The notes below the pieces were generated by a model that worked only from the letters and a program-made list of their open reading frames with translations, was not told the DNA's origin and made no database searches. Positions 19,728 to 51,343 of a DNA stretch of 64,000 nt are shown one piece after another. Source of the DNA: Sulfuricella sp. T08 (GTDB lineage Bacteria; Pseudomonadota; Gammaproteobacteria; Burkholderiales; Sulfuricellaceae). Made by a program: the position numbers and the translations under genes. Within the stretch, counting starts at the first letter, position 1, and each line of letters starts with the position of its first letter. Location of the stretch: the NCBI RefSeq assembly GCF_000971475.1, contig NZ_DF967522.1, forward strand, positions 147,403 through 211,402, written 5' to 3'.

Positions 19728-20996
19728 ATGCAAGACATTCTGTATCTCACCCATCGCATCCCCTACCCACCCAACAAGGGCGACAAAATCCGCTCCTGGC
19801 ATATACTGAAGTACCTGGCGCAGCGTTATCGCGTGCATCTAGGCACCTTTGTCGATGACCCAGATGACTGGCAACACGTGGATACAGTAAAGAAATTGTG
19901 CGGAGAGACCTGCTTTGCATTCTTGAATCCGCGCACCGCGCGACTGCGCAGCCTGGGCGCTTTGGCTGGCAGGCGGCCGCTGACGCTGGACTATTATCAC
20001 AATAGCGGTTTGCAACAGTGGGTAGGCACGGTAATGAAGGAACAGGCCATAGAGCGAGTCCTGGTATTCTCTTCCGCCATGGCTCAGTACGTGACGGGTG
20101 CCCGGCAAGCACGGCGCATCATCGACTTCGTAGACATAGACTCGGACAAATGGCGGCAATATGCCGAGAAAAAACCCTGGCCCATGAGCTGGCTGTATCG
20201 ACGCGAAAGCCGCTCGCTGCTTGGCTACGAGCGACAAGTCGCGCGCGAATTCGACGCATCGCTGTTCGTGTCGCAAGCGGAGGCCGATCTGTTCAAGCAA
20301 CTGGCGCCGGAAAGTGCGGCCAAGACCAGCTTCTTCAACAATGGGGTGGATGCCGGATATTTTTCACCCTCCCATGAGTATCCCAACCCTTACCCTTCGA
20401 ATGAAGCAGTCATGGTCTTCACCGGCGCGATGGATTACTGGCCCAATATCGATGCCGTGCAATGGTTTGCGCGGGAAATCCTGCCGGCGGTGCTGGCCAG
20501 CAATCCTGATGCGCGCTTTTACATCGTCGGCTCCCGACCCGCACCCCATGTACAGGTGCTCGCAACACTGGCTGGCGTACGTGTGACCGGCGCGGTGCCT
20601 GACATTCGTCCCTACCTCGCGCATGCCCGCCTTGCCGTGGCCCCGTTGCGCATCGCTCGCGGCATCCAGAACAAGGTGCTGGAGGCGATGGCCATGGCCA
20701 AGCCGGTGGTCGCATCAATTCAGGCGCTGGAAGGTATTGCCGCGAATATCGGAGAAGAAGTTCTGCTGGCACGTGACTGCGAAGAATTTATCGCCACTAT
20801 TTCGACCTTGCTGCAACACCCCCAAAACAACATTGGCCAGGCCGCAAGAGCGCGAATCCTGGCGGACTACACATGGGAACACAACCTGGAGCGTGTGGAT
20901 GAATTACTTTCACCGGCACCGGGAGTGACATTGCACAGCACGGCTTCCGCATCAAAACCCATCACGCTTACAACTGCAGGAGTAATGCATGAGTAA
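19728..20996 (+). CDS. XrtA/PEP-CTERM system glycosyltransferase (GT4-like, TIGR03087 type)
   Basis: This cytosolic glycosyltransferase is predicted to add a sugar to the EPS repeat unit. It opens with LTHRIPYPPNKGDKIRSWH (about residues 7-25), the signature of this XrtA-linked family. The GT-B C-terminal half contains NNGVDAGYFSP (about 205), MDYWPNIDAV (about 233) and the nucleotide-sugar region RIARGIQNKVLEAMAMAKPVV (quoted in parts: RIARGIQNKVLEAMA). Length 422 residues. It is four bases after FemAB and overlaps xrtA by eight bases. The transferred sugar cannot be told. Confidence 0.9.
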   Translation: MQDILYLTHRIPYPPNKGDKIRSWHILKYLAQRYRVHLGTFVDDPDDWQHVDTVKKLCGETCFAFLNPRTARLRSLGALAGRRPLTLDYYHNSGLQQWVGTVMKEQAIERVLVFSSAMAQYVTGARQARRIIDFVDIDSDKWRQYAEKKPWPMSWLYRRESRSLLGYERQVAREFDASLFVSQAEADLFKQLAPESAAKTSFFNNGVDAGYFSPSHEYPNPYPSNEAVMVFTGAMDYWPNIDAVQWFAREILPAVLASNPDARFYIVGSRPAPHVQVLATLAGVRVTGAVPDIRPYLAHARLAVAPLRIARGIQNKVLEAMAMAKPVVASIQALEGIAANIGEEVLLARDCEEFIATISTLLQHPQNNIGQAARARILADYTWEHNLERVDELLSPAPGVTLHSTASASKPITLTTAGVMHE

Positions 20997-22557
20997 ACCT
21001 GCTGCCACCCACTCCGACAGCACGGCTTCTGCGCACCAGGCCAACAATTGGGCCATCGCCACTCTGCTAGCCATCACTGCTGTGACAGCGCTGCTGCTGC
21101 TGTTCTACCAGACTACTTTGTCCACGGTTGCAATTTGGCACCGTTCAGAAACCTTTGCACATGGCTTCCTGATCTTCCCCATCAGCGCTTTATTGATCTG
21201 GAGCCGGCGCAAGGAAATTGCATTGCTCGTCCCCCAGCCAGACCTGCGCGGCTTGCCGGTATTACTCCTGTTTGGGTTCGGCTGGCTGCTGGCCTATCTG
21301 GCGCGGGTGCTGGTGGTGCAGCAATACGCGCTAGTGGCGATGATTCCGGTGCTGGTGTGGATCATCCTCGGCCTGCGCATCACACGCGCCCTCACGTTTC
21401 CACTGGGCTTTCTGTTCTTTGCGGTACCAATGGGCGAGTTTCTCATCCCATACATGATGGATTTCACCGCCGATTTTACCGTTGCCGCACTGCAACTCAC
21501 TGGCATCCCGGTCTACCGCGAGGGTACTTTTTTTACCATCCCCAGCGGTCAATGGTCGGTAGTGGAGGGATGCAGCGGCTTGCGCTACCTGATCGCCTCA
21601 CTCACCCTGGGCTGCCTGTACGCCTACCTCACTTACCGCAGCACCAGGCGGCGCATCATTTTCGCTATCCTGTCACTGATCGTTCCGGTCATCGCCAACG
21701 GCCTGCGCGCCTACATGATCGTAATGATTGCGCACCTCTCCGACATGAAACTGGCGTTAGGGGTCGACCACTACATCTACGGCTGGGTATTCTTTGGTCT
21801 GGTGATGCTGCTGCTGTTCTGGGTTGGCGCCTTCTGGCGCGAAGACTTGCCTCAGGCCAAAGATGACAAGCCTGCCGCAACGCCAACTAACTCGGCACCG
21901 TTACCAGTCCGGCGTATCGCCTTGGCCACCCTTGCTGCCGTAGGCATAGCTGCTGTGTGGCCGGGATATACCGCCTACCTGAAAAGCCATGTTCCGCTAC
22001 CCGTGCCGATCAAGCTCGAAGTTCCTGCCACCAATGGCTGGCGCGCAGACCCGGCGCCTCTGTCCGACTGGCAGCCGGATTATAAAGGCAGCGACGCCAG
22101 CCTGACCCAGACTTACCGCAAAGGGCCCAAGGCAGTCAGCCTCTACATTGGCTACTACCTCCATCAGCACGAGGGCGCCGAACTCGTCACATCGACCAAT
22201 GTCATCGTGCGCCAGAAACACCCCGTCTGGAACAATGTCGGCGAGTCCAAACGCGCCGTCACCGTGGGCAGCCAGCCGCTGCTGATCGTACAGACCAAGC
22301 TGCGCTCGCCGACGCTGCGGTTGCTGGTATGGAATTGGAACCACATCGGCGACACTTACACCGTTAACGCTTATTTCGCCAAGCTGCTGGAAGCCAAGGC
22401 GAGATTACTGGGCCAGCCTGATGATGCGGCGGCGATCATCCTCTCTTCACCCTACGATGGCGACATGGAGTCCGCTGCAGCAGTGCTGCAGGAGTTCATC
22501 GGCGACATGCTGCCTTCCATCGAAACAAACCTGAAACAGGCTGCGGGCGGGTCGTGA
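20989..22557 (+). CDS. xrtA: Exosortase A with fused EpsI domain
   Basis: Exosortase A is a polytopic inner-membrane cysteine transpeptidase that cleaves PEP-CTERM sorting signals. About eight membrane helices fill residues 20-290. The catalytic triad is visible: Cys195 in VVEGCSGLRY, Arg240 in IANGLRAYM and His261 in GVDHYIYGW. Residues from about 310 form a periplasmic EpsI domain (SLYIGYYLHQHEGAELVTS near 385), a fusion common in XrtA. Length 522 residues is normal. It lies between the two XrtA glycosyltransferase genes and overlaps both. No PEP-CTERM substrate gene was found in the window. Confidence 0.95.
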   Translation: MSKPAATHSDSTASAHQANNWAIATLLAITAVTALLLLFYQTTLSTVAIWHRSETFAHGFLIFPISALLIWSRRKEIALLVPQPDLRGLPVLLLFGFGWLLAYLARVLVVQQYALVAMIPVLVWIILGLRITRALTFPLGFLFFAVPMGEFLIPYMMDFTADFTVAALQLTGIPVYREGTFFTIPSGQWSVVEGCSGLRYLIASLTLGCLYAYLTYRSTRRRIIFAILSLIVPVIANGLRAYMIVMIAHLSDMKLALGVDHYIYGWVFFGLVMLLLFWVGAFWREDLPQAKDDKPAATPTNSAPLPVRRIALATLAAVGIAAVWPGYTAYLKSHVPLPVPIKLEVPATNGWRADPAPLSDWQPDYKGSDASLTQTYRKGPKAVSLYIGYYLHQHEGAELVTSTNVIVRQKHPVWNNVGESKRAVTVGSQPLLIVQTKLRSPTLRLLVWNWNHIGDTYTVNAYFAKLLEAKARLLGQPDDAAAIILSSPYDGDMESAAAVLQEFIGDMLPSIETNLKQAAGGS

Positions 22558-23693: not shown

Positions 23694-23750
23694 AAAAGGG
23701 ATTCCTGCTAAGTGCCGGCCGGATTCGGCGGGGCATACGGAAATAAAATT

Positions 23751-32910: not shown

Positions 32911-33852
32911 GTGAAAAGGATACCGGATTTGAGAAATTTCTGGCTTAAAGTTGATAAAACCCTACGCCATCACGGCCAACAAGCGCTGCGCGGCCTGCGC
33001 GGCCTATGGTGGGATATTGCGCGCCCCGGAACGGACCGACCGATCTTCGTGATTGGCTGCAGTCGTGCCGGCACCACTGTGCTATACAAGACATTGGCTG
33101 CATCCCCTGAATTGGGTTCTCTGAATCGAGAGACCCATGATTTTTGGGTCTCCTTGCATCCGTTGGCGGAAAAAAATTGGGATACACACGCGCTTTCGGC
33201 CCAAGACGCGACACCCAAGGAGCGAGAAGCGGTAGCACGCTATTTTTACACCTGGAGCGGCAACCCGCGCTGGATCGACAAGAACAATCAAAATGGCTTG
33301 TGTGTGCCTTATTTACAGGCGCTTTTCCCTGAAGCTATTTTCGTCTATATCAAGCGCAGCCCGGAAGATAACATCAATTCGCTTATCGAAGGCTGGGGCA
33401 AGGAAGGCAAATTTTCCACCTGGTCGGACGATCTTCCTGAACAAGTTGAAATAGACGGCGGGCATTATACAAAGTGGTGTTTTTTTCTAAGCGACGGTTG
33501 GCGGCAATATCTCAAAGCACCGGTAGAAGAAGTGGCCGCGTTCCAGTATCGCGCCATGAATGAGGCCATCATGGTGGCAAAGGCGGCAGTTCCCTCAGAC
33601 AATTGGGTGGAAGTTTTTTATGAAGACCTGGTGCGTGACCCTGTTGCGGGATTCCGAGCCGTTTTCCATGCCTGCCAACTACAATTCGATGTGCAGATGG
33701 AAGACCTGTGCCGCAATGTACTGGAAACGCCCTACGATGCGTTTGGCGAAATACGGCTCAACAAGTGGAAGGGCAGCCGCAATCGAGAGAAAATCGAGCG
33801 CATGATGACCCAAGTGGAACCTATCGCCCGTGCCATGGGGTATGCGCCTTGA
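32911..33852 (+). CDS. Sulfotransferase family protein
   Basis: This likely transfers sulfate from PAPS to a sugar hydroxyl. The 5'-phosphosulfate-binding loop is PIFVIGCSRAGTTVLYK (residues 44-60), and the 3'-phosphate region is seen as IFVYIKRSPEDNINS near 142. WIDKNNQNGLCVPYL carries the Lys/Asn of the substrate side. The start is GTG at 32911 or TTG at 32929; both leave the PAPS loop intact. Length 313 residues. It is 59 bases after the ligase and overlaps the SGNH gene by four bases. No PAPS-forming genes lie in the window. Confidence 0.85.
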   Translation: MKRIPDLRNFWLKVDKTLRHHGQQALRGLRGLWWDIARPGTDRPIFVIGCSRAGTTVLYKTLAASPELGSLNRETHDFWVSLHPLAEKNWDTHALSAQDATPKEREAVARYFYTWSGNPRWIDKNNQNGLCVPYLQALFPEAIFVYIKRSPEDNINSLIEGWGKEGKFSTWSDDLPEQVEIDGGHYTKWCFFLSDGWRQYLKAPVEEVAAFQYRAMNEAIMVAKAAVPSDNWVEVFYEDLVRDPVAGFRAVFHACQLQFDVQMEDLCRNVLETPYDAFGEIRLNKWKGSRNREKIERMMTQVEPIARAMGYAP

Positions 33853-34871
33853 GTCGTTTCACCAGGGCATTTCGTTTGTTCGGCTGGGGCAGTGTGGTGG
33901 GTCTGTTGCTGCTGGCATTGGCGGAAACGTGGCTGCACACCGACGATTTTCTGTACCGCTACCGCTCGGTATTCGCCACAGGTCGAGCCATGGACAAGCT
34001 GCGTTATGTGGAGTCTCATCCTCCCGCGCTGCTGGTGTTGGGCAACAGCCGGGTTGATAACGGTTTTGACCCGCGCACCTTGCTGGAAGGCGGTGCGGCA
34101 GACATCATCGGCTTCAATATGGGTATGCCGGGTGCCAACGCAGGCATTCTTTATGGTTTGGTGAAACGTCTGGTAGATCAAGGCGGTCTGGGTGCCAAGG
34201 GTGTGCGCGCAGTAATCATCGGCCTGGATGAAAGCCTGCTGCAAGCCGAAGACAGCTTGGGCTATGGCGTATTTTACGGCGATCCTGCATGGCTCTGGCA
34301 GAATCGCGACTGGCGCGGAATGCTGGCGCACGGCATACGTCTGTGGGGGTTTTCCGCCAACCTGAAGCAATTGCGAGAACCGGGCAAGGCGCTGGGATTC
34401 ATCCAAGCCAGCTTTGCCAGCGTGGAGCCCATCGGCGGCGGCGCGGCAGAACACTTGGGTTATCGTGCCGGATTTGGTGGCTTACAGGATGCAAGACAGG
34501 TGCGCCGTCAGCAGGAGAGCTTCGACACGCCCCCGGATTCCGTTCAGGTCAAGGCGCTGTTCACCACGATAGCGCTGTTGCAGAAGCATGGAGTGCAAGT
34601 GGCCGTGGTGTATCCTCCATTGTTGAATCGTGAACTCTTGTACCTCACTCCACAGCTTCCGGTGGCACAACCCTACACCACCGTGGCCAGGTGCCTGACG
34701 GCCCTGGGTATTCCGCTGCTGGCGCTTGAGCCGGGTACGCAACGCGACCCGGTGATGTTCATCAATTCCGGCCACTTGAATGATCGCGGCGCACAACATT
34801 ACAGCCGCTTGCTGGCGAAGCAGTTGCGGGCAATCTGGCCGAGCCTGTACATCAACGAGGGGGGCGCATGA
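33849..34871 (+). CDS. SGNH-hydrolase-like protein (AlgX/DltD-type partner of an MBOAT acyltransferase)
   Basis: A single N-terminal membrane anchor (about residues 9-26) is followed by a periplasmic SGNH-like domain. The nucleophile motif is LLVLGNSRVDNGFDP (Ser67), GFNMGMPGAN (about 97) is the block with the oxyanion Gly/Asn, and NSGHLNDRGAQHYSRLLA near the C-terminus holds the Asp-His pair. Such proteins work with AlgI/DltB-type MBOAT proteins to acylate polysaccharides in the periplasm. The start is TTG at 33849, overlapping the previous stop; a longer frame would run through the sulfotransferase gene. Length 340 residues. The next gene is the MBOAT. Confidence 0.8.
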   Translation: MSRFTRAFRLFGWGSVVGLLLLALAETWLHTDDFLYRYRSVFATGRAMDKLRYVESHPPALLVLGNSRVDNGFDPRTLLEGGAADIIGFNMGMPGANAGILYGLVKRLVDQGGLGAKGVRAVIIGLDESLLQAEDSLGYGVFYGDPAWLWQNRDWRGMLAHGIRLWGFSANLKQLREPGKALGFIQASFASVEPIGGGAAEHLGYRAGFGGLQDARQVRRQQESFDTPPDSVQVKALFTTIALLQKHGVQVAVVYPPLLNRELLYLTPQLPVAQPYTTVARCLTALGIPLLALEPGTQRDPVMFINSGHLNDRGAQHYSRLLAKQLRAIWPSLYINEGGA

Positions 34872-36307
34872 TTTTCAGCAGCATGAGCTTCATGGTGTTC
34901 CTGATAGCGGTGTTATTCCTCTATTCCGCCACCGATAGCTACCGCCAGCGTGCCGCCATCATTCTGTTAGCGAGCCTGGTATTTTATGGGTCATGGAAGC
35001 CCTCCTACCTGCTTTTGCTGACAGCCTCGCTCACCCTCAACTATGGCTTCTACCGTATCCTCCAGCATACCCGCTCCCGCGCCTGGCTCAGCTTGGCTTT
35101 GGTGATCAATCTCGGCGTACTTGTTTTCTTCAAATACTTGGGGCTGTTTTTCCAGACCCTCATCACCCTGGGGGGTTATTTCCAATTCCCCGTACCCGTC
35201 GAAACACCCGGTTGGGCGCAATGGGCACTACCACTGGGAGTGAGCTTCTATACCTTCCACATGCTCTCGGTGATGATAGACGTGTACCGCGGCGATTGGA
35301 TACAACCCATCAGCTTCCGCGCCTGGAGCCTGTACGTCACCTTTTTCCCACACATGATTGCCGGCCCCATCCTGCGTGCCAGCGAACTGGTGGAGCAACT
35401 GGAAAAAATTGAACCGCTGAAGCTGGATGCGGTACGGTTGGGGGCGCTGATTTTTATTGGCGGACTCATCAAGAAGACGCTGCTTGCCGACAATCTGGCA
35501 GGCATGGTGGAGCCGCTATATGCCCACCCGGAGCAATTAAGCTTTTACACCGCCTGGCTCGCCACGCTGGCCTTCGCCTTGCAGATTTATTTCGATTTTT
35601 CCGGTTACAGCGAGATGGCCGTCGGCCTCGCCCGTATGTTTGGTGTAACCCTGCCGCGCAACTTTCTCTACCCTTACATCAGCCACAGCGTGCAAGAATT
35701 CTGGCAGCGCTGGCACATCACTCTGTCGCGCTGGCTCAGAGATTACCTCTATATCTCGCTGGGTGGTTCGCGTTGTTCCTTCTGGCGCAACATGGCCAAT
35801 CTCATGATTACCATGCTGCTGGGCGGCCTGTGGCACGGCGCAGGCTGGAACTTTGTATTCTGGGGTTTTCTGCATGGCAGTTATTTGGTCGGACATCGTT
35901 TGTTACTGCATGCTTACACTTGGGCAGGTGTTACAGCGGGTTCCGCTGCCGATCGCACCTTGTCCTGGCTTGGCTGGCCATTCACCTTCATCCTGGTGTG
36001 CTTTACTTGGGTATTTTTCCGCGCCAACACTTTTCCCGATGCCTGGCACATCAGCTCCACTATGCTGGGCTGGGCTCAGCCCAGCAGCGCAACTCATGCC
36101 ATCCGCCTCTCGGAACAGGCCATGATCGCTGCGGCGCTGTTGTTGGCATTGATTGAGCCCCACATCATGGCATGGCTGCAGCGACAGGGTCCGCTCAACT
36201 GGTGGCGGGTGTCGGCTCCCGTACGCGGGCTTGCATATGCGACGCTGGTGCTGACGCTGATAGCGTTCGGCGGAGATACACAGAAATTTATCTATTTCGA
36301 TTTTTAA
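34868..36307 (+). CDS. MBOAT-family membrane O-acyltransferase (AlgI-like)
   Basis: This polytopic inner-membrane protein passes acyl groups, commonly acetyl, across the membrane to a periplasmic partner. The active site is GLWHGAGWNFVFWG with His323, preceded by FWQRWHITLSRWLRDYLYI (about 280), both hallmarks of AlgI/PatA. YSEMAVGLARMFG and NFLYPYIS are further family features. About 11 membrane helices. Length 479 residues is normal. The four-base overlap with the SGNH gene supports a two-component acylation system acting on the EPS. Confidence 0.92.
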   Translation: MIFSSMSFMVFLIAVLFLYSATDSYRQRAAIILLASLVFYGSWKPSYLLLLTASLTLNYGFYRILQHTRSRAWLSLALVINLGVLVFFKYLGLFFQTLITLGGYFQFPVPVETPGWAQWALPLGVSFYTFHMLSVMIDVYRGDWIQPISFRAWSLYVTFFPHMIAGPILRASELVEQLEKIEPLKLDAVRLGALIFIGGLIKKTLLADNLAGMVEPLYAHPEQLSFYTAWLATLAFALQIYFDFSGYSEMAVGLARMFGVTLPRNFLYPYISHSVQEFWQRWHITLSRWLRDYLYISLGGSRCSFWRNMANLMITMLLGGLWHGAGWNFVFWGFLHGSYLVGHRLLLHAYTWAGVTAGSAADRTLSWLGWPFTFILVCFTWVFFRANTFPDAWHISSTMLGWAQPSSATHAIRLSEQAMIAAALLLALIEPHIMAWLQRQGPLNWWRVSAPVRGLAYATLVLTLIAFGGDTQKFIYFDF

Positions 36308-36308: not shown

Positions 36309-37526
36309 ATGACGATGCAAACCTGGCTTGGTGGGATAAGCATAGCTTGGCTGCTAGCGCAAACTGTACTGTTATTTGCCTACCGCCACGCGCTGACCGT
36401 CCGTTGGCGTGAGCCAGCATTGCGTTTTCCGGTAGTGATTTTTGAAAGCGATGACTGGGGTGCCGGCCCGCTTGAGCAAGCAAAGGCTTTAGAAAACTTG
36501 CGCGAAATATTGGCGAAGTTTAAAGATAAGAAGGGACGCACACCCGTCGCTACACTCGGCGTTATTCTGGCCACTGCCGATACCCAGCGCATCAAAAATA
36601 CCGACGGCGTTGAGTATTTTTCTAAAAGCTTGTCCGAGCCTGTTTATACCCCGTTGCGTGACGTGATGGAGGAGGGAGTACGACAAGGCGTTTTTGCGCT
36701 GCATCTCCATGGCATGGAGCACTATTGGCCACAAACACTAATGCAAGTGGCGGCGAAAGACATGAACGTTCGCGACTGGCTGCAAAGTGATGGCATTCCC
36801 GGCACGGAATCGCTGCCCTCGCACCTCCAGGCACGCTGGACGGATGCGAGCGCGCTACCCTCGCGCGCACTGACTAATGAGGCAGTACGCGCGGTCATGA
36901 CCGAGGAAGCCAGCCTATTCGGCACGTGTTTCAAAATGCGGCCACGCGTGGCTGTGGCTACGACCTTCGTCTGGACTGAAGAAGTGGAATCGGCATGGGG
37001 CAAGGAAGGCATCGACGTCATCATTACTCCCGGCGCACGCTACACTTGCCGAGATGCAACAGGAAAGCCCGGGGGCGAGGACAAACGAATGATGAACGGC
37101 GAGTTAAATAAGCGCGGGCAAATTTATCTGGTACGCGACGTATACTTCGAGCCCATGCTGGGGCATAAGCCCGAACGGCTGGTGAACGATGCCAAGGAGC
37201 GTGTGCGTCTTGGGCGACCGTGTTTGGTGGAAATGCATCGTTCCAATTTTATTGGCGCGACAGAGAAGTGCGATACAAGTTTGCGCGTCTTGGAGGCTGC
37301 CTTGGAGCAGTTGCAACATACGTTTCCGGAAATACACTTCATGACCAGCCTGGAGCTGGCAGAAGCAATACGAACAAAAATGCCGGCATTGCTGGAATCA
37401 AAACCAATTCCGCAAATTCGAATCTGGCTACGGCGCATCAAACAAATACGCGGCTTTGCCAAGCTGTCCAAGATAAGTGGCCTCGCCGTGCCTTTGTGGA
37501 TAATTGGTAAGGCGGTAGGGGCATAA
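36309..37526 (+). CDS. NodB-like deacetylase-fold protein with N-terminal membrane helix
   Basis: One N-terminal helix (about residues 6-25) anchors a (beta/alpha) barrel that resembles polysaccharide deacetylases. PVVIFESDDWGAG (Asp48, Asp49) matches the first metal motif, and FALHLHGMEHYWPQ near 135 supplies the His pair. VDVIITPGARYTC-like strands follow (here IDVIITPGARYTC). The spacing and length (405 residues) differ from standard NodB, so it belongs to a divergent branch and activity is inferred. It lies one base after the MBOAT gene and directly before a GT2 gene (37527). Confidence 0.65.
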   Translation: MTMQTWLGGISIAWLLAQTVLLFAYRHALTVRWREPALRFPVVIFESDDWGAGPLEQAKALENLREILAKFKDKKGRTPVATLGVILATADTQRIKNTDGVEYFSKSLSEPVYTPLRDVMEEGVRQGVFALHLHGMEHYWPQTLMQVAAKDMNVRDWLQSDGIPGTESLPSHLQARWTDASALPSRALTNEAVRAVMTEEASLFGTCFKMRPRVAVATTFVWTEEVESAWGKEGIDVIITPGARYTCRDATGKPGGEDKRMMNGELNKRGQIYLVRDVYFEPMLGHKPERLVNDAKERVRLGRPCLVEMHRSNFIGATEKCDTSLRVLEAALEQLQHTFPEIHFMTSLELAEAIRTKMPALLESKPIPQIRIWLRRIKQIRGFAKLSKISGLAVPLWIIGKAVGA

Positions 37527-38563: not shown

Positions 38564-39706
38564 ATGAAACGACTTCTCGTTCTTACCGAACTTTTTCTGC
38601 CCACAAAAGGCGGCACCGCCGTATGGGCGGCGGAGGTGTACAAACGCCTTGGCGGAAAGGATATTCATATTGTCACCGCTGATGTACCAGGCGCTGCCGA
38701 AGTCGATGCCGTTCACCCTAACACCATTCACAGGCTTGATCTCAAGCGCGTGCCCTGGCTCAGACCCGAATCGTTGATAATGTATGCACGGTTCTTCTTC
38801 AAATCTCTGTGGCTGGCGCTGACCCATCGATTCGACGCCATCCATGCATTTCGTTCCTTGCCAGAAGGTCTGGTGGCTTGGCTGGTGGCCCGCCTAACTT
38901 TTCGGCCAGTGGTCATTTATGCCCACGGCGAGGAACTCACCACTTGGGGACGCGGCCATAAGTACCGCGCTATGCAATTTACATTGCAACATGCTGACCT
39001 AATCATCGCCAACAGCGACTATACGCGCGACATCTTAATTGGTATGGGAGTGCGACCTTCACGCATAAACCTGATTTACCCAGGCGTGGATATAGAGCGC
39101 TTTCGCCCAGGACTACCCTGCGACGACCTCAAGGCCAAGATCGGTTTGCTCCCTGACGAGAAACTCATTCTCTCGGTAGGCCGACTACAAAGGCGTAAAG
39201 GTTTTGATATGGTTATTCGCAGCATCCCGGAACTTTGCAAGCGAGGGCTTATAGTGCGCTATGCCTTGATCGGCATAGGTGAAGACCGGGCATATCTGTA
39301 CAATCTGGCACAGGAACTTGAGGTGGTAGACAGGGTGGATCTTCTGGGTCATGTCGATGCTGAAGACCTGCCCCGCTGGTACAACGCATGTAATGTATTT
39401 GTAATGCCAAACCGGGAGATCAACGGCGATACCGAGGGTTTTGGCATGGTGTTCCTCGAGGCGGCGGCTTGTGGGAAACCTGCTATTGCAGGTCAGGACG
39501 GCGGGACTGGTTCTGCTGTGATAAGCGAGGCAACCGGTCTGAGGGTTGACGGTGCATCTGCGAAAGCGGTGTCTCTCGCGCTTGCCCGTTTATTGGGTGA
39601 CGAACCGCTGGCCTGTAGAATGGGCGCTGAAGGCAACCTTCGGGTAGGCAACGAGTTCTCTTGGGAACGCGTCGCTGAGAAGACTTTTGACCTCGTAAAT
39701 GGGTAA
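38564..39706 (+). CDS. Glycosyltransferase family 4 protein
   Basis: This is a GT-B retaining transferase. LTELFLPTKGGTAVWAAEV opens the fold with the Gly-rich loop, YAHGEELTTWGRG near 120 is typical of mannosyl/glucosyl GT4 enzymes, and the donor half has LIYPGVDIERFRP (about 166), LSVGRLQRRKGFD (about 204) and NGDTEGFGMVFLEAAACG (about 287) with EX7E. Length 380 residues. The 107-base gap before it contains only a short inverted repeat (AGGGTA at 38511-38516 and TACCCT at 38526-38531). The start follows TAAGGAAA. Confidence 0.9.
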   Translation: MKRLLVLTELFLPTKGGTAVWAAEVYKRLGGKDIHIVTADVPGAAEVDAVHPNTIHRLDLKRVPWLRPESLIMYARFFFKSLWLALTHRFDAIHAFRSLPEGLVAWLVARLTFRPVVIYAHGEELTTWGRGHKYRAMQFTLQHADLIIANSDYTRDILIGMGVRPSRINLIYPGVDIERFRPGLPCDDLKAKIGLLPDEKLILSVGRLQRRKGFDMVIRSIPELCKRGLIVRYALIGIGEDRAYLYNLAQELEVVDRVDLLGHVDAEDLPRWYNACNVFVMPNREINGDTEGFGMVFLEAAACGKPAIAGQDGGTGSAVISEATGLRVDGASAKAVSLALARLLGDEPLACRMGAEGNLRVGNEFSWERVAEKTFDLVNG

Positions 39707-42386: not shown

Positions 42387-45300
42387 TTACTGTCGGACAC
42401 ATGGCAGGAACTCCACCATAATCTCTTGCATACGTGCCAAAAGATCAGCCCGGATTACGGGATGCTCTGCCGATATGTCATGGCGGCAGGCAGGATCTGC
42501 CTCGATGTCATACAGACTAATCTGGCAGCCCTTCTCCAGCGGCTGATACACCAGTTTCCAGCGGCCATGACGAATCATTCTGTCCTTGGCGAGCAAAATT
42601 GTGTCTTGATACTGGGGCTTGATTGCCAAGGTGCCGCTGGCACGATCCGGCACTTCCATCAGTTCCAGCAAGTCAGGATAACGCAGATGTTTCTCCGGCA
42701 GGCCGGGAATATCGGCAATCCACATGCCGGTTTCATTGAAAGCATCGAGCTGCGGGCATTGCTTATGCGGCTCAAAACAGGCTGCCAAAGATACCCCATC
42801 CATGCTAGCGACGGGGCTGGCGCCTACCAATTCCAGCAGGGTTGGCGCAAGATCAATGCTGCGCACCACCTGATCGACTATTCCGCTGGCGGATTTGCGT
42901 GGGTCACGAATCAAGAGTGGAATGCGCGAACTGAAATCACCGACTGCGGAATTGCCTTGGCCCCAGGTGTCGTGCTCGAAGAAGTCCATGCCGTGATCGG
43001 AATAGACAACGACAATAGTATTTCCCGCCAGCCCACAAACGTCGAGGTGGCGCAGCATTTTGCCTACTTCATCGTCAAATTCGGCCACGCAGCCATCGTA
43101 CAAATCCATGATTTGATCGAGATCGAACTCCTCTTTGGGTGCGCCCTGGCGACGGATAATCTCGAAGGGGTCAGTCAGCTTGTTCATGGCGAACTTGGAC
43201 TCGCCGTCATAGGCTGGGTTGGAAAAGCGCGTGTACCACGGCCATTCCGAGGCAAATGGTGGATGGGTAGTGGAATAAAACACGTTGAGGAAAAAGGGCT
43301 GAGCGCTTTCTGCCAACCGCGAAACCAGTTGCCGGGCGCGTCGACCCATCGGCTGGGTCAGGGGCACGCCGCCGAGGTAATAAATTTCCGGCAGTAACAG
43401 TCGCCCTAGCCGATTATGGGTGAATAGCGACAGAAACAGGCGCAAATCCTTTGGCCCCTGGCGGATCAGGTATGTCAGATTCCACTGGTCTTCCGGTAGA
43501 TCAGTGGAATCGAAACCAAACGAGAACTTGCCCATGTCACCGCCGCACCAGTCCGAGATTGCAGCGGTGCGGTAGCCCTGTGCCTTGAGCAGATGTGGCA
43601 ACGTATCGACTTTGAGGCGAGCTTCCGTGTCCGCCACAAAATTGTCGCGAATACCGTGGGTATGCGGCCAGGTGCCCGTCATCAGCGAAACCAGACTAGG
43701 CGCAGTGCGGGCGCAGGGTACATAACAGTTGGCAAACAGCACGCCCTGCTCGGTAAGTTGATCAATGTTGGGTGTGAGGGCGCGTCGGTAGCCCAGCACG
43801 CTCAACCGATCAGCACGCAGTGTGTCCGACCCGATCATCAGAATATTCGGCGGCGTATCGGCAGGGGGTTCGAATGTACGGCGTGGCGGACGCGCATCGG
43901 GCAACCACGCCGCCCAGATGGCCGTGCCCGCATAGAACAGCATGGCAGCCCACAGCGCAATAATTTCGCTAGTTTGGTTCTGCTTGACCAGTTGCCAAGA
44001 AGCGGCGATCAGCAACAGGGCAGCGGCAGCGGCACACGCAAACTGCATCAGATAAATGCGTCCCGGCGTCATCCAGTGCCACAACCAGTAGAAACGGCTC
44101 ATGCGGTAGTGCATGGAGGCGACCAGTAGTCCCGGATTGAAGCGCAGCTTGCGAATGAATTGTAGCGTGGCCGCAGCCAAAATCCCCAGCGCCGCCGCGA
44201 GCGCTGCAATACCCCTTGACCATTCGCTGCCCAGACTCGCATTCAGCATGTAATACAGCAGCACCCCTGCACCGCCAGTGAACAGCATGATGGCAAATGC
44301 CCAAACAGACAGACGTACGAGTGCAAACAGGGTGTAGCGCCGGTAATGGGTAAGTACTTCTTTTCGGACGAGCGGCCCGGTCCGTGAAAAATCTAGCAGC
44401 GATTTCGCCAGCAGTGCCACAGTGCCCACACCAGCCACGGTTATTGAGGGCAACACACCGGCCCAGTGCGCGCTGCCGCTGATAAACCAGGCGATCAACC
44501 CACTGGCGACCGTCATAACCGCCAGCGCTTCGATGAGAATAATGCCACGATCAGAGGGGAGCGGCAGGCCTTTGCCACGATAACCCGATTCACGACGGCC
44601 CTGCATCTCCCCCAAGGCAGCAGCGGTTCTCATCCAGTAGAAGCGCCGCTTGGCCCACGACAGGCTGAACACGCTGTGAAACCCATATTCCACCAGCTTG
44701 CGCCACATATAAAGCGGTACCCGGCCATTGCCGTAAATGCGCGAAGTGGCACGAAGGCGCTGAAAACTTTTTTTCAACAAATAGCTTAGTTTCAGACGAG
44801 CCATGTCCACATAGTGGCGCTGCACCATGTCCGGCGTGTACTGGCAATGTATACCACGAGATAGTGCACGTAATACGTATTCACTGTCCTCGCCACCGCC
44901 CAGATCGTGACCGTGTGGGCCAAGGTCGGTAGAAAACTGCCCGGTCAGTTTAAATACATGATGGCGCACCACGAGATTGCCACCACCGGGAATGGGGCCT
45001 TCTTTTGCCGTGATGGTTGTGGGTTGATCGCCCTGATCGTAGCGCGGCACCGGCAGCGGATAAATCCGGTACTGGCCCTCTTCATGTACCCAAGCGGGTT
45101 CGGTGCCGTCCCAGTCGGGCAGAATGCGGCCACAATACAGGCCGGCATCGGGCCAAGCCTGCGCAGCCTGCTCAATCGCAATCAGGTAATTTTCACAGAC
45201 CCGATGGTCATCATCGACAAAAGCAGTTAGTTCAGTATCTATTTCGGGAATGGCACGATTCAGCGCATGCGACTTGCCAGGTGCAGGAACTTCAATCAGG

Positions 45301-45497
45301 CGCAGCGGCAGCCAGCCATTACTGGTCTGTTGCGTTTGATACTCCCTCATGCGTGCCAGCGTGTCGTCGGTGCAGGCATTCGCTGCCACCAGAATCCGCA
45401 CCGGCATGGAGGGACGACGCGCTGCATTCAGCGAAGCCAGCACCCGTTCCAGTAAATCGGCTCGGTTATGGGTGCAAATCAGAATCGTGAGTTTCAT
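42387..45497 (-). CDS. GT2 glycosyltransferase - membrane - alkaline-phosphatase-superfamily fusion
   Basis: Three parts are joined in 1036 residues. Residues 1-250 are a GT2 domain (TILICTHNRADLL; AFVDDDHRVCENYL with the metal motif; GGGEDSEYVLRAL). About six membrane helices follow (325-545). Residues 551-1030 are a sulfatase/alkaline-phosphatase-superfamily domain: NILMIGSDTLRADRL with Asp558, TAPSLVSLMTG and YSDHGMDFFEH with Asp834/His835. The canonical CxPSR is replaced by TAPSL, so Thr598 sits at the formylglycine Cys position, as in phosphoethanolamine and phosphoglycerol transferases. It may therefore add or remove a phospho-group rather than sulfate (inference). Last gene of the minus-strand block, 92 bases after its neighbour. 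Confidence 0.85.
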   Translation of the reverse strand: MKLTILICTHNRADLLERVLASLNAARRPSMPVRILVAANACTDDTLARMREYQTQQTSNGWLPLRLIEVPAPGKSHALNRAIPEIDTELTAFVDDDHRVCENYLIAIEQAAQAWPDAGLYCGRILPDWDGTEPAWVHEEGQYRIYPLPVPRYDQGDQPTTITAKEGPIPGGGNLVVRHHVFKLTGQFSTDLGPHGHDLGGGEDSEYVLRALSRGIHCQYTPDMVQRHYVDMARLKLSYLLKKSFQRLRATSRIYGNGRVPLYMWRKLVEYGFHSVFSLSWAKRRFYWMRTAAALGEMQGRRESGYRGKGLPLPSDRGIILIEALAVMTVASGLIAWFISGSAHWAGVLPSITVAGVGTVALLAKSLLDFSRTGPLVRKEVLTHYRRYTLFALVRLSVWAFAIMLFTGGAGVLLYYMLNASLGSEWSRGIAALAAALGILAAATLQFIRKLRFNPGLLVASMHYRMSRFYWLWHWMTPGRIYLMQFACAAAAALLLIAASWQLVKQNQTSEIIALWAAMLFYAGTAIWAAWLPDARPPRRTFEPPADTPPNILMIGSDTLRADRLSVLGYRRALTPNIDQLTEQGVLFANCYVPCARTAPSLVSLMTGTWPHTHGIRDNFVADTEARLKVDTLPHLLKAQGYRTAAISDWCGGDMGKFSFGFDSTDLPEDQWNLTYLIRQGPKDLRLFLSLFTHNRLGRLLLPEIYYLGGVPLTQPMGRRARQLVSRLAESAQPFFLNVFYSTTHPPFASEWPWYTRFSNPAYDGESKFAMNKLTDPFEIIRRQGAPKEEFDLDQIMDLYDGCVAEFDDEVGKMLRHLDVCGLAGNTIVVVYSDHGMDFFEHDTWGQGNSAVGDFSSRIPLLIRDPRKSASGIVDQVVRSIDLAPTLLELVGASPVASMDGVSLAACFEPHKQCPQLDAFNETGMWIADIPGLPEKHLRYPDLLELMEVPDRASGTLAIKPQYQDTILLAKDRMIRHGRWKLVYQPLEKGCQISLYDIEADPACRHDISAEHPVIRADLLARMQEIMVEFLPCVRQ

Positions 45498-45589: not shown

Positions 45590-46534
45590 TCATCGAGAGT
45601 TCTCGTGCGCACGTTTCATGTAGCCCCGCATCATGCCTAGAAAGTGACCAACAGTCATTTGTTGGCGGAAAGCCCAATCTGGTCCGCGCATGAAGAGTTG
45701 TCCGAGATAACGGGCGATATTGCGTGCAGTATGCGCGAACAGGAACAAAGGGATACCGAACAACCGGCGTCGGTAAGTTTGTGGATCATGATAAGCTTTT
45801 TGTACACCCGCGTTATAGTGGATGGTACGGAAATAGCGTTTACGCAATTGAAATGGCATTACTTGGTGATACACGATAGCGGCCGGCGCATAAAAAATCC
45901 TGCCATCCGCCGCAGCTAGGCGATGAAAATAATCAGTTTCTGCACCTTTGAAGAGTTCGGCGCGTTTCTGGCCGCTGCCTTTTCGGCCCAATAGTGGATT
46001 GAATAGACCGATCTTGTCGATTACACGACGATGAAACGCCATGTTCCCGCCGAACGGGTATTTACTGATTCCGTCCATCTGGAACGGCGACTCGCCAAAA
46101 TCCTGGTAACCGAGAAACCCATACATCTCGGGTTTGATCCAGCGCGGCAGAATGATCGAGTCGTCCAGATGGATTCGGCCGCCAGCCGCGTCCGCGTCGT
46201 TTGATTTTAACGCTTGAAATAACGCGGCGAGCCATTGTGGTGCAACGCGGATATCGTCATCGACATAACAAAAATAATCGCCGTGTGATTCCTGCGCGCC
46301 ACGGTTGCGCGCGTAATTCAAGCCCTGCTGTGACTCAAATGTATAGCGGATGGTAATTGGCAATTCTTCGGCCAGTCGTGTCACGGTTTCGCGTGTTTTA
46401 TCTGCGGAATTGTTGTCGACGACCAACACCTCCCATTTCATGTCACCTACGCCCAGTTGTCGACTTAACTCGCCCAGGCAGGTGGATAAATTATTCGCGC
46501 GGTTGTAAGTGCAGATAATAACGGTGAAATCCAT
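45590..46534 (-). CDS. Glycosyltransferase family 2 protein
   Basis: A GT-A transferase with FTVIICTYNRANNLSTCL at the start, VLVVDNNSADKTRETV (about 38), NYARNRGAQES (about 75) and FCYVDDDIRVAPQWL (about 92) with the DDD metal motif. GAETDYFHRL near 208 holds the late acidic pair. I use the ATG at 46534 (MDFTVIICTYNR); a longer frame upstream would add a segment unlike the family and cover the neighbouring gene. Length 314 residues. It begins four bases after the deacetylase gene ends. Confidence 0.9.
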   Translation of the reverse strand: MDFTVIICTYNRANNLSTCLGELSRQLGVGDMKWEVLVVDNNSADKTRETVTRLAEELPITIRYTFESQQGLNYARNRGAQESHGDYFCYVDDDIRVAPQWLAALFQALKSNDADAAGGRIHLDDSIILPRWIKPEMYGFLGYQDFGESPFQMDGISKYPFGGNMAFHRRVIDKIGLFNPLLGRKGSGQKRAELFKGAETDYFHRLAAADGRIFYAPAAIVYHQVMPFQLRKRYFRTIHYNAGVQKAYHDPQTYRRRLFGIPLFLFAHTARNIARYLGQLFMRGPDWAFRQQMTVGHFLGMMRGYMKRAHENSR

Positions 46535-46538
46535 ATGA

Positions 46539-47315
46539 TTACTTTCGGCCAAAGCGGGATAGCACCCGCCCGGTATAGTAGCGAAGGGGAAAAGTATAAG
46601 ACATATCGTTCGAGCCGAATTTGAGTTTTTGTTTGAACTGCCAGAGCGTATCGTTGCCGTAAATCTCGATGCGACGTAATAAATATGGATCGATCCCTTC
46701 ACCATTGAAACCCGACCGGGTCGAACAAGCAGTGCGGTAGCCAGCGGCAGCAACTGCCATCAGCGTTTTGTCGTCGTACAAGCCAAATGGATAAGCAAAA
46801 TGGTTTACGTCCGATCCGGTAAGCGTCTGCAATTTTTCGCGGCTCATCCGGATTTCGGCCATGGTGTTTTCAGCATCAAGCTGCGGCAGATTCGGATGAC
46901 TGCACGTATGGCTGCCAATGCAAACGCCCGCAGCTTGCATCTCCAGCATCTCACTTTGAGTCATCAATTCGCGCTCGGGAAAGCCGCGCGGGGTCATCCA
47001 GTTGTTGTTCGCACCGATGCGGTCAGCCAGCATAAACATCGTCGCCGGAATATTGTAACGGGTGAGCACTGGCAAGGCATGGTGGAATGTGTCACGAAAA
47101 CCATCGTCAAACGTGACGGCCACCCCTGTTGTCGGCCATGCGCTCTTTCCTTCAATCGCTGTGGCAATTTGATCGAGACTCAACAGATTTTTCCCGGATT
47201 CGTGCAAAAAACGCATCTGTGCTTCAAAGCGATCGGGGGATAAGCAGAATTTCGCCTCCTGCTTCGCGCGTGCCCGGTCGATTATGTGATACATCAGGAT
47301 AAGGATCCGGCTCAT
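46539..47315 (-). CDS. Polysaccharide deacetylase (NodB/CE4 family)
   Basis: This has the standard CE4 layout: ILILMYHIIDRAR at the start, GVAVTFDDGFRDTF with the catalytic Asp70-Asp71, IGSHTCSHPNLP with metal ligands His136 and His140, and FAYPFGLYDDKT (about 173). Length 258 residues. No signal peptide, so a cytosolic or membrane-side substrate is possible. It overlaps the propeller gene upstream by four bases and precedes the GT2 gene. It is distinct in sequence from the XrtA-type deacetylase at 17823. Confidence 0.9.
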   Translation of the reverse strand: MSRILILMYHIIDRARAKQEAKFCLSPDRFEAQMRFLHESGKNLLSLDQIATAIEGKSAWPTTGVAVTFDDGFRDTFHHALPVLTRYNIPATMFMLADRIGANNNWMTPRGFPERELMTQSEMLEMQAAGVCIGSHTCSHPNLPQLDAENTMAEIRMSREKLQTLTGSDVNHFAYPFGLYDDKTLMAVAAAGYRTACSTRSGFNGEGIDPYLLRRIEIYGNDTLWQFKQKLKFGSNDMSYTFPLRYYTGRVLSRFGRK

Positions 47316-48592
47316 GCGATCAGGTCTTCCACATCAACCACATATATCTGACGCGAGCCGTTGTGTACCGAATCGATACAGACCTGCCGGCCATCGCGCC
47401 GCCAGCGTGGATGCAGATCGCAGCGTATTTCACCCCACCATTTTGCTTTCGGAGAATACAGTCGCGCGATATCTAGACGTTTTCCCTCGGGCCAAGAGAC
47501 CAGCATCAGCGTGCGCATGTCATAGCGGTCGGGGTAGGTATCGTTGAGTACCCAGTGTCGATCGGGTGAGAAGCTGTCGTGGCCATCCTCGGTGAGTATA
47601 CCCTCGCCATAGACCTGGTAAGAGCCATCGCGTACATCCACCAGCAGGAAGTGCTCACTGCCATCGCGACGGCGCGCCCACACCAACAGTCGATCCTCAT
47701 CCAGCCAGTCGTAATGCGAGATGCGCCCGGTGTCGAGCGCACAGGCGAGCTCGCTACCATCTGAGCGCGCCACATATAGCCGCACGCCCCAGTTCTTCTC
47801 ACCCTCGCGCCACAAGTGGAAGAAAGCGATGCGCTTACCGTGCGGGCTGGCTTGTATGTGATTCACCCAATGGAACTGTCCTGCCATGGCGGGGGTGGGG
47901 TCGCGCCTTGCCAACTCATCCAGCGTGGCGATCAGATGGCTTTTGCCGCTGTCCAGATCTAGGGTATATACGCCGTCATCGTTTGGATGAGGAGCCTCGG
48001 CCCATGGGTCCGTCACACCAGCGTAGCCATAGCCTGGACGATGTGTAGCGAGTCGGGCAAAATTCAGGCTCCAGGCAGTCTTTCCATCGGAGGACATGGC
48101 ATAGATTGCACGATCGTAGACCCGTTGCTCTTTTCCAGAAATATCGCGTACAACGCCCACCAGTTTGCCATCACGCCGATCATTGTGAACCAGAAGGTGA
48201 TCCGGCTCAGCAGGATGCCAAGCGAGCATGGCACCCTGCTGCCAATTCCATGACAGGCTTTCAGCGAGCAACTCGAAGCGGTTGTCGGAGAGGTGTACGA
48301 CACCGACGCCCACCCGGTCATCGGAGCCGGGCGGGCGGTCGTTGAAGCCCGACTCGTGCGCGAGCAGCATGGTCTGAGAGGCGTTCCAAGGCGATTTTTC
48401 GTAATACCCAAAGAAGTGGTGTTTCGGTCCAAAGGTCACGGCTCGCACGCGCTCGCGGGTACTGCCGAAATGTAACCAGCGGTATAGCGCGGGCTGCGTC
48501 TTGCGCACCTGGCCTTCCGTCAAGGATTCCAACTTCTGCTGCACGCGCCATGGTAGGCCGGGCACGGACATAATGGTTCGGTATGGATTCAT
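47312..48592 (-). CDS. Beta-propeller-like protein, function unknown
   Basis: I start at the ATG at 48592, overlapping the preceding stop as ATGA, although an in-frame start lies 87 bases further up. The 426 residues contain repeated Trp/Asp-rich blades, for example AHESGFNDRPPGSDDRVGVG, MLAWHPAEPDHLLVHNDRRD, HYDWLDEDRLLVWARRRDG, HPRWRRDGRQVCIDSVHNG. These look like TolB/oligogalacturonate-lyase-type propellers. There is no obvious signal peptide or catalytic motif I can name. In a sugar locus a glycan-binding or lyase-like role is imaginable but not shown. Confidence 0.65.
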   Translation of the reverse strand: MNPYRTIMSVPGLPWRVQQKLESLTEGQVRKTQPALYRWLHFGSTRERVRAVTFGPKHHFFGYYEKSPWNASQTMLLAHESGFNDRPPGSDDRVGVGVVHLSDNRFELLAESLSWNWQQGAMLAWHPAEPDHLLVHNDRRDGKLVGVVRDISGKEQRVYDRAIYAMSSDGKTAWSLNFARLATHRPGYGYAGVTDPWAEAPHPNDDGVYTLDLDSGKSHLIATLDELARRDPTPAMAGQFHWVNHIQASPHGKRIAFFHLWREGEKNWGVRLYVARSDGSELACALDTGRISHYDWLDEDRLLVWARRRDGSEHFLLVDVRDGSYQVYGEGILTEDGHDSFSPDRHWVLNDTYPDRYDMRTLMLVSWPEGKRLDIARLYSPKAKWWGEIRCDLHPRWRRDGRQVCIDSVHNGSRQIYVVDVEDLIA

Positions 48593-49539
48593 CGGCCGCT
48601 CAGGGTTTGCACCAGTTTCACGTACGCACGCTCGGGTAAAAGTGCGGGCAGTAGATATTTTAGATCCGGCAGTTTCCAACCACCGTGGCGGAGTACTTTG
48701 CGGAACACATGCCGCGAAGTGACAAGATCGCGCCGCCAGTAAGCCTGATAGCCCCGCTTTAGAAAGCCACCGTCAATCAATTGACGGAGCTTGCCCGAAC
48801 CCAAATGCGCCACAAGTTCCGGGTAATTGTGTACAAATTTCTGCTTTACCTGCCAGGAATTTTCTGCCTGCACCCATTGTTTGGAAGTGATCTGACCACT
48901 CACCTTGTGCCGGTAAAAGGCCATGACCTCAGGCACAAGCACAATATGATTGGCCACGGCGATGCGCAGCCACAGATCGTAATCCATGCAGGTGGGCCAG
49001 CGGGTGTCAAAGCCACGCAACGCAGTAATAGCCTCGCGGCGTGTGAGCACAGCGTGAATCGGCCAGGGCGCGGCAGCGCGCAAGAACTGCTCGGCTTTAT
49101 CACCTTTTTCGTAGTCGGGGGGGACGTAGGGGTCATTGCTACGATCGACGGCACCGACGTTCTGCCAGCCACAGTAAGCCAGAACTGCATTGGAATTCAC
49201 CAATGCCGAACGCAGCTTTTCCAGGCAATCCAGGCTCCACCAGTCATCGGCGTCGAGAAAGGCCACGAACTCGCCTTGGGCATGTTGCAGTCCAAGATTG
49301 CGTGCCGGATACGGCCCCAAGCGGTCCTGATGCAGTAGATTCAGGCGCGGTGAATATTGCGTGGCAAGCCGCTGCAGGATATCCACACTGCCGTCAGTTG
49401 AGCCGTCATCCACGACGGTTAGTTCGACACTGGGGTAGGTCTGGTTTAACACGCTATCAACGGCCTCACGCAGGTATGGCTCGGCGTTGAAACAGGGCAT
49501 GATGACCGAGATCAATCCCGGTTCGAATGACTTAATCAT
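48589..49539 (-). CDS. Glycosyltransferase family 2 protein
   Basis: GT-A motifs: SVIMPCFNAEPYLREAVDS (about residue 12), LTVVDDGSTDGSVDIL (about 38), PARNLGLQHAQGEFVAFLDA (about 79) and DADDWWSLDCLEKL (about 97). MDYDLWLRIA near 196 carries a late acidic motif. Length 316 residues. It starts inside the last codons of the AsnB-like gene and ends overlapping the propeller gene, so four genes here form one tight unit. Sugar unknown. Confidence 0.9.
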   Translation of the reverse strand: MIKSFEPGLISVIMPCFNAEPYLREAVDSVLNQTYPSVELTVVDDGSTDGSVDILQRLATQYSPRLNLLHQDRLGPYPARNLGLQHAQGEFVAFLDADDWWSLDCLEKLRSALVNSNAVLAYCGWQNVGAVDRSNDPYVPPDYEKGDKAEQFLRAAAPWPIHAVLTRREAITALRGFDTRWPTCMDYDLWLRIAVANHIVLVPEVMAFYRHKVSGQITSKQWVQAENSWQVKQKFVHNYPELVAHLGSGKLRQLIDGGFLKRGYQAYWRRDLVTSRHVFRKVLRHGGWKLPDLKYLLPALLPERAYVKLVQTLSGR

Positions 49540-51343
49540 GTTTTCTCAATACGTGGCGCATAAGGAGGATACGCTCGAGATGACGAGCCCCAAGTTTCAT
49601 GGGGGCTTGGATCGGCGCCCCTGATATCGTGTTGTATAACGAAGATGCGAAAGGAACACGTTTAGCCAGCGACTTGATGAACTGCTTCGCTCTCCCCCAA
49701 CTGACTGCGGGTGGCCTTTTCACCGGAGCACTTTGTTTCACAATGTCGTCGATGAGCTTACGGATAGAATCAACCGGGATTATCGTGTCCAGTGCGCTCG
49801 TATTTTCGAGCAGTGTCTCCAAAGCTTTAGCTTGGCTCGTCACCAACTTGTGGTGGTCAAGAGGATTACCGTTGAAATCCGCCATTGGCAAGCTGAAAAG
49901 GTCAGGAAACATCTCCCGGACACAGTCGCAGTAGAGCTGCCGAGAGTAGCGTGCCGAGTCTGGCAGACGCTTAATAAACTCCAAGATATCCCGATCGAGC
50001 AACAGATTTCGGATGGGCAAACGCCGACCGAAATAGTATTCACGCCAAGGAAGCTGGAGATTGGACAGTCTCTGATCGACGTAAAGGAAGTCCTTGAATT
50101 CCTGCAACGACGCGAAGTTCTGACCGAGACCACGAATTTGTGCCCAATCTGCCTCGACGTCGCTGATGATCGCATTAGCGTCCACGGCATCCGAGAATAT
50201 CCATGTCGGCCAGAGTAGCGGATTACGCACGCCCACTATATTCGCCAGCACAAGCTGCTCCGTCGGAAGGGGTGGGCTTTCGTCCCAGCCGAAGCACTCG
50301 TCCCCTGAAAACATCACGGTGTGAGGTACGCTGAAGCGCGATGCAAGCTCATTCAAAACATCCGCCGAGGGCATGAAATCCACCAAGCCGTGGCCGAGCC
50401 TGGCATTCGCTCTTAGTCCTTCTACCAGGTCGCCATGGAAGTTAAATACACCGTGTTGCAAGCCAAAGCGGCTGGCAATCATCTTGGGGACAGTGACGTC
50501 GTCAGCTGTCTCGGGGCCATATGAGAAGCAGTATATCTTCTCGGCTGGCACGATTTCCCTGAGCAGGCCCAATACTGCACGCGAATCATAGCCTCCGCTC
50601 AACGAGAGGATGACCTGCTCGTCGGGCGACACGCGCCGCACAGCCGCCTTTCTGAGAAGTGAGGCAAGTTCGGTGCGCAGGTCTGCAGGGTCTCTATCTG
50701 TATATTCGTGATTGAATCGGTATTTCCAGTATGGCTCAGAGAGCACGCTGCCTTCGACAAAGCGGTGAATGGATGCGCTTTCTAACTGACGCACTCCGAG
50801 TAATGGCGTGCGGCCCAGGCAAATGAATCCGCTGATGAGGTAGGGGATTAGCGCGACGGGGTCGCATTCGGTTGCGGGGATCCACGGCAGATCCGTGGCG
50901 ATCCAGTGACAACCGTCGCGTTGAGTATGAAAAACTCGCCTTGAATTCACGCGGTCTGTTACCACTGTTACCAGATCACGCCGGGTATCGACAATCAGGA
51001 ACGCGCAGGAGCCGTCAAGTCCCGAAAAGAACGAAGGCCCATGCTCTGCGTAGGCAGTGAGGACCAGCTCTTCAGCTTCTTGTGTGGAAAGCGGATGGTC
51101 ACCGTATAGCTCACCATGAAGCAGTATAGTGAAGTCGCCAGATGAGTCTTTTATAAGCTGTGTGCCATCTGTATGGGCCAGAAGGACACGACGGCTGGGG
51201 GTCCTAATCGTTACTTGCGGCCGTATCCCAAGCTGTGCCTCGAACTCCGCTGCCAATACTTGCTCGTCATTACCCATATGCGCGGGGCAGATCATCGCAG
51301 CGAAATCTGAACGAACGAACATGCCCGAAGCTACAGAACTCAC
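49532..51343 (-). CDS. Asparagine synthase-like protein without the glutaminase nucleophile
   Basis: The 603-residue protein has both AsnB domains. The ATP-pyrophosphatase part is intact (VILSLSGGYDSRAVLG, residues 245-259, and YCFSYGPETADD). The N-terminal glutaminase-like part (GELYGDHPLST, FSGLDGSCAFLIVD, VVTDRVNSRRVF) lacks Cys2; the reading frame starts MSSVASGMFVRSDF, where SGMFV may align with the usual CGIAG, so Ser7 would replace Cys. Ammonia use, or a non-amidating role such as amide/lactam formation, is therefore possible. The start is GTG at 51343, overlapping the stop of a 46-codon ORF by four bases. Compare the intact amidotransferase at 23751. Confidence 0.85.
   Translation of the reverse strand: MSSVASGMFVRSDFAAMICPAHMGNDEQVLAAEFEAQLGIRPQVTIRTPSRRVLLAHTDGTQLIKDSSGDFTILLHGELYGDHPLSTQEAEELVLTAYAEHGPSFFSGLDGSCAFLIVDTRRDLVTVVTDRVNSRRVFHTQRDGCHWIATDLPWIPATECDPVALIPYLISGFICLGRTPLLGVRQLESASIHRFVEGSVLSEPYWKYRFNHEYTDRDPADLRTELASLLRKAAVRRVSPDEQVILSLSGGYDSRAVLGLLREIVPAEKIYCFSYGPETADDVTVPKMIASRFGLQHGVFNFHGDLVEGLRANARLGHGLVDFMPSADVLNELASRFSVPHTVMFSGDECFGWDESPPLPTEQLVLANIVGVRNPLLWPTWIFSDAVDANAIISDVEADWAQIRGLGQNFASLQEFKDFLYVDQRLSNLQLPWREYYFGRRLPIRNLLLDRDILEFIKRLPDSARYSRQLYCDCVREMFPDLFSLPMADFNGNPLDHHKLVTSQAKALETLLENTSALDTIIPVDSIRKLIDDIVKQSAPVKRPPAVSWGRAKQFIKSLAKRVPFASSLYNTISGAPIQAPMKLGARHLERILLMRHVLRKHD

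Follow-up and report, generated by a model that had tools for sequence, protein, structure and literature searches.

What does a sulfatase-like domain that has lost the catalytic Cys of sulfatases do behind a glycosyltransferase, and on which side of the membrane does it act? The question is raised by a gene in a 64,000-nucleotide stretch of the Sulfuricella sp. T08 genome (contig NZ_DF967522.1, positions 147,403 to 211,402; hereafter the window, whose own numbering is used throughout). The gene (42387..45497, minus strand) is one 1036-amino acid frame that begins with ATG and joins a glycosyltransferase family 2 (GT2) domain, a membrane domain and a sulfatase-like domain of the alkaline phosphatase superfamily beside an exopolysaccharide (EPS) locus. 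The favored answer, which has about even chances of being right, is an inward-facing enzyme of this superfamily that uses a Thr nucleophile to tailor a lipid-linked EPS intermediate.

The three-part architecture proposed in the initial annotation is borne out by Pfam domains and structure prediction. The GT2 domain occupies residues ~1–300 (44598..45497, minus strand) and is recognized by PF00535/PF13641 and by conservation; the PF00535 (Glycos_transf_2) match spans residues 4–144 at 47.2 bits (cut-off 23.3), and both acidic motifs, D95-D96-D97 and E203-D204, are present. Among 81 ungapped family rows, ten gapped rows being excluded, E203 and D204 are each found in 81, D95 in 80, and D96 and D97 in 75 each. 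The sulfatase-like domain comprises residues 548–1036 (42387..43856, minus strand), with a PF00884 match over residues 550–892 (157.8 bits, cut-off 25) that is the sole match to this family in the 3.42-Mb genome. Between the two lies the membrane domain, residues 317–530 (43908..44549, minus strand), delineated by hydropathy, helix counts and AlphaFold2. Both AlphaFold2 predictions contain the same six helices (317–339, 343–368, 379–422, 428–453, 478–505 and 509–530), and one model has a mean predicted local distance difference test score of 89.5 and a predicted template modeling score of 0.82. Structure comparison of the membrane domain with the PDB revealed no clear fold match.

At the position of the formylglycine motif, the codons ACT GCG CCT AGT CTG (43706-43692, minus strand) encode T598-A-P-S-L602. 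In alignments to PDB sequences, T598 falls at the place of the sulfatase Cys and L602 at that of the Arg, in agreement with the substitutions first read from the window. Conservation was assessed in 106 distinct family sequences, including that of the window, that match the profile at E≤1e-60 among the collected loci. T598, D834 and H835 are each present in 106/106 and D558 in 105/106, the exception being a gap, so the predicted metal ligands Asp558 (43824..43826) and Asp834-His835 (42993..42998, codons GAT CAC; both on the minus strand) are retained as annotated. Residue 602 is Leu, Met or Ile in all 106 and never Arg, and the (C/S)-x-P-x-R motif is thus missing from the family; with Thr at the nucleophile site, formylglycine cannot form. 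H745 is a further sulfatase residue that is kept, whereas the Lys/His/Lys set of the S1 sulfate site is replaced by D649 (aligned against 7p24 and 6hhm), C651 (7p24) and Q847 (6hhm), respectively. D649, W650, D654, K657, Q680, H745, E841, W845, Q847 and N849 are, like T598, D834 and H835, invariant across the family. A more distant Thr-type sulfatase-like protein, encoded by a Leptospira plasmid gene (L191, 5074-7527, plus strand), shares the C-terminal motifs ETGIW and YPD with the fusion, as judged by eye.

The proposed protein would tailor EPS at the inner membrane, its two catalytic domains both at the cytosolic face. Its GT2 domain would extend an undecaprenyl-linked EPS repeat by a sugar, and the membrane helices would keep the S1-sulfatase-fold domain next to it. 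Thr598 would serve as the nucleophile, with a divalent metal held by Asp558, Thr598, Asp834 and His835, and a phospho-linked head group would be transferred to, or removed from, the same lipid-linked intermediate through a covalent Thr-phosphoryl intermediate, before flipping and polymerization. By analogy, transfer of a phospho-linked group appears the most likely reaction, ahead of hydrolysis or sulfate handling, because of the chemistry of known Thr members, and a glycan is a possible acceptor. A cytosolic hydrolase, which would remove a phosphate or phosphodiester from a lipid-linked sugar or a nucleotide by-product without group transfer, is a serious if somewhat unlikely alternative. The strongly conserved residues 667–712, apparent in the family alignment, and the membrane anchor make a specific substrate, lipid or glycan, plausible without discriminating transfer from hydrolysis.

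The initial annotation assigned the phospho-substituent step to the membrane side opposite the GT2 domain, and this part of the proposal is contradicted by topology prediction. GT2 enzymes use nucleotide sugars as donors, so the GT2 domain must be cytosolic. Hydropathy counts give six helices between the GT2 and sulfatase-like domains in 75/79 fusions and five in the other four, and eight in all five fusions with an alternative GT2 domain (described below); overall, the number is even in 80/84 fused homologues. Lys/Arg content is greater in the GT2-side loops in 59/59 rows, and although these loops are longer (78 versus 29 residues), the Lys/Arg density calculated from the means is still 0.18 versus 0.07. 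Applied blind, the positive-inside rule returns "inside" for the sulfatase-like domain in 58/59 family rows, and "outside" for 6/7 EptA and 1/2 OpgB/LtaS-like controls. Since the helix number is even and the positive-inside rule agrees, the sulfatase-like domain seems, by consistent prediction, to lie on the cytosolic side together with GT2. A Nitrotoga homologue (L075, 10928-15277, plus strand) carries an additional in-frame C-terminal PF04464 domain (45.3 bits, cut-off 22.1) of the CDP-glycerol glycerophosphotransferase family, a single case among the 106. This family is cytosolic, and the extension is counted in favor of same-side placement.

A periplasmic transferase, with GT2 inside and the sulfatase-like domain outside adding a phospho-substituent after flipping, is consequently improbable, given both the helix parity and the charge distribution, yet it draws on several observations. 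EptA/MCR, LtaS and YejM, which also have a Thr nucleophile, are outward-facing in the literature excerpts available. Homologous frames without GT2 have five helices in 16/22 cases, as do YejM and MCR-1; the others, some of them incomplete, have none (two), four (three) or six (one). The first membrane helix of the fusion is the extra one relative to these stand-alone proteins, which fits the need for a cytosolic partner if their N-terminus is outside. Four conserved Cys residues of the domain (C591, C595, C651 and C803) could form disulfides, but among six Cys compared, no pair is always kept or lost jointly. By sequence, the Thr nucleophile and the acidic, Asp and His ligands of EptA/MCR are all present (D558, T598, D834 and H835), whereas topology prediction does not place the catalytic domain on the periplasmic side as in those enzymes.

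Several points weigh against an inward-facing EPS-tailoring enzyme. Its topology is a matter of prediction, and the charge rule is wrong for one of seven EptA and one of two OpgB/LtaS-like controls and does not return "inside" for one of the 59 family rows (L027, in which only four helices were found). The membrane-linked Thr-type relatives are described, in those same excerpts, as acting outside the cytoplasm, and a five-helix protein with its N-terminus inside would also face outward. The position of Q847 matches, by eye, a His-rich stretch in the Leptospira relative, which makes more than one metal site unlikely. A sulfotransferase is the conserved partner in the cluster, and this speaks for sulfate. 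Finally, to our knowledge, no activity is known for any member of the family.

Fused homologues recur in many beta- and gammaproteobacteria, and the fusion is therefore a conserved protein and not two separate genes merged by a sequencing error, a concern raised at the outset. Within 22 Sulfuricellaceae-level genomes, Sulfuricella sp. T08 included, there are six such homologues with 48–89% identity in five further genomes (G003, G005, G019, G020, in which a contig end cuts the homologue, and G016, which has two copies), and the active site is retained in all seven rows of the family alignment. An order-level scan of 300 genomes, with two candidates scored per genome, found matches in 14, of which 13 cover the sulfatase part and one (G147) the GT2 domain only. 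A profile of the membrane and sulfatase parts matches 21 of 369 class-level genomes, the source genome included, and only the source genome among 299 at the phylum level. A collection of named genomes contributed 211 relatives, with 79 loci retained for analysis, from Thiobacillus, Nitrotoga, Sulfuriferula, Aromatoleum, Thauera, Sulfurimicrobium and other genera.

The membrane-sulfatase module is mobile between partners. At five named loci (L077, L079, L083, L085 and L088) the same module is joined to a different GT2 domain, in which DAG replaces DDD, and two more helices are present. In two genomes (G107 and G217) the module and the GT2 are encoded separately within a single cluster, whose genes, identified by their best matches in the window, run GT2, deacetylase, GT2, GT2, sulfotransferase, GT2, module. 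Frames of 696–761 amino acids without GT2 occur in at least 7 of the 20 other class-level genomes.

The kinship with EptA and LtaS suggested by the initial annotation holds for the Thr and metal ligands and weakens beyond them. A profile of the sulfatase-like domain scores EptA at no more than 20.6 bits, two Thr-type OpgB/LtaS-like proteins of ~650 amino acids at 50.0 and 57.3 bits, and Cys/Ser-type sulfatases at 30.8 to 107.5 bits; the OpgB/LtaS-like scores thus overlap those of the lower sulfatases, and EptA is clearly more distant. The 50 structure matches listed are all sulfatases and phosphonate monoester hydrolases. The domain, which has the S1 alkaline-phosphatase-like fold, is closest to S1 sulfatases by fold and sequence and remote from EptA. 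EptA_B_N (PF08019) is found neither among the Pfam matches of the protein nor in the genome, and the NCBIfam LtaS model NF053595, whose cut-off is 970, scores 21.7 bits. Thr is by itself a weak pointer to family, because it occurs in 30/59 PF00884 seed sequences according to an excerpt of PMC5066984.

The EPS context that had been proposed is evident from the neighborhood, as the fusion adjoins an XrtA/PEP-CTERM exopolysaccharide locus. Exosortase A (XrtA), the marker of this locus type, is encoded at 20989..22557 on the plus strand (TIGR03109, 353.7 bits, cut-off 208); TIGR03007, TIGR03015 and TIGR03108 also exceed their cut-offs in the window, and the locus members above cut-off comprise exosortase A, chain-length determinant, ATPase, amidotransferase and ligase. 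The cluster also contains a PF13469 sulfotransferase (32911..33852, plus strand; 85.9 bits, cut-off 27), a relative of which (E≤1e-5) is found in 66/79 named loci within the locus DNA examined. Of 33 module-bearing genomes, 25 have an above-cut-off PF13469 match no more than 10 kb from the module, versus 1.03 expected at random placement, although the genomes share kinship and the association concerns the cluster as a whole. In the others, PF13469 is 49 kb (G403) or 421 kb (G587) away, on other contigs (G606, G620 and G624), present only as a fragment that scores below cut-off where a contig begins (G280), or without any match, the module touching a contig end (G065 and G382). This proximity indicates the pathway context and not the reaction of the sulfatase-like domain. 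In some loci, for example L050 (8889-9992) and L043 (9012-10010; both plus strand), a second PF13469 sulfotransferase gene ends where the GT2-sulfatase gene starts.

The recurring sulfotransferase and the S1 sulfatase fold are what recommend sulfate handling, in which the domain would move or trim the sulfuryl group installed by this neighbor, with Thr replacing formylglycine. This is nevertheless unlikely: the Cys and Arg of the formylglycine motif and the sulfate-site Lys/His/Lys are all lost, and oxidation of Thr would yield a ketone and not formylglycine, as an excerpt of PMC5066984 indicates. That the domain is a non-catalytic, glycan-binding or scaffolding pseudoenzyme, as the disappearance of several catalytic hallmarks might suggest, is very improbable given a nucleophile and metal ligands conserved beyond what a dead site would lead one to expect.

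Other genes surround the fusion. An HpsE-like GT2 gene (45590..46753) and a PF01522 polysaccharide deacetylase gene (46539..47315) lie on the same, minus strand, and a flippase and an MBOAT protein are also encoded nearby. The orthologue of a glycosyltransferase family 4 (GT4) gene (38564..39706, plus strand) mostly accompanies the module: at E≤1e-95 it is found in 14/300 order-level genomes, including 12 of the 13 module carriers, with GT4 lacking a module match in two (G018 and G147) and the module lacking GT4 in one (G005). A 405-amino acid protein (36309-37526, plus strand) without a Pfam or NCBIfam match at E 0.001 has a relative of at least 35% identity in 55/79 loci around the fusion. 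A 387-amino acid protein without a Pfam match (33708-34871, plus strand), present in 9/79 loci at a median identity of 78%, adjoins the MBOAT acyltransferase (34868-36307) and is a possible acylation partner. A 455-amino acid protein without a Pfam or NCBIfam match (47312-48679, minus strand) adjoins the deacetylase on the same strand and is found in 2/79 loci. A second asparagine-synthase-like gene (49532-51343, minus strand) is present in addition to the XrtA amidotransferase gene at 23712-25649.

Among the papers listed by a literature search, judged by titles and abstract openings, none describes a GT2-sulfatase-like fusion. Tentatively, and at somewhat less than even likelihood, these proteins may constitute a new family within the alkaline phosphatase superfamily, anchored in the membrane, facing inward and using a Thr nucleophile to modify lipid-linked EPS in the cytosolic leaflet. 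They would be physically coupled to interchangeable glycosyltransferases and form part of a pathway by which proteobacteria make sulfated or otherwise anionic exopolysaccharide. An inward-facing member would mean that Thr chemistry is applicable to lipid-linked glycans that have yet to be exported. The fusion gene is, in addition, a marker for an EPS cluster of proteobacteria in which a sulfotransferase recurs, among them genera such as Thiobacillus, Nitrotoga, Thauera and Aromatoleum. Among bacteria, sulfated polysaccharides are attributed to cyanobacteria alone in an excerpt of PMC8205485, a statement qualified by excerpts on a sulfated Vibrio capsule cluster (PMC11641403) and on sulfated material in granular sludge (PMC10483923).

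Compared with S1 sulfatases and phosphonate monoester hydrolases (e.g. 6hr5, 4upl and 2w8s), the fusion has Thr in place of formylglycine, has lost the Arg, Lys, His and Lys hallmarks, and is membrane-bound, joined to GT2 and located in a biosynthetic locus. With EptA/MCR and LtaS/OpgB/YejM it shares the Thr nucleophile position, the Asp-His ligands and a catalytic domain that follows membrane helices; unlike them, it is predicted to face inward, is joined to GT2 and lacks PF08019, with very weak kinship to EptA. Residues 1–242 match the HpsE-type GT2 model NF038302 at 95.7 bits, below its equivalog cut-off of 300 bits, and the fusion differs from that type in carrying the membrane and sulfatase-like module. 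The xss (synechan) cluster of Synechocystis is likewise an EPS system with sulfotransferases, of the Wzx/Wzy type, and the excerpt describing it (PMC8205485) mentions no such protein, whereas the fusion belongs to a beta/gammaproteobacterial XrtA/PEP-CTERM locus.
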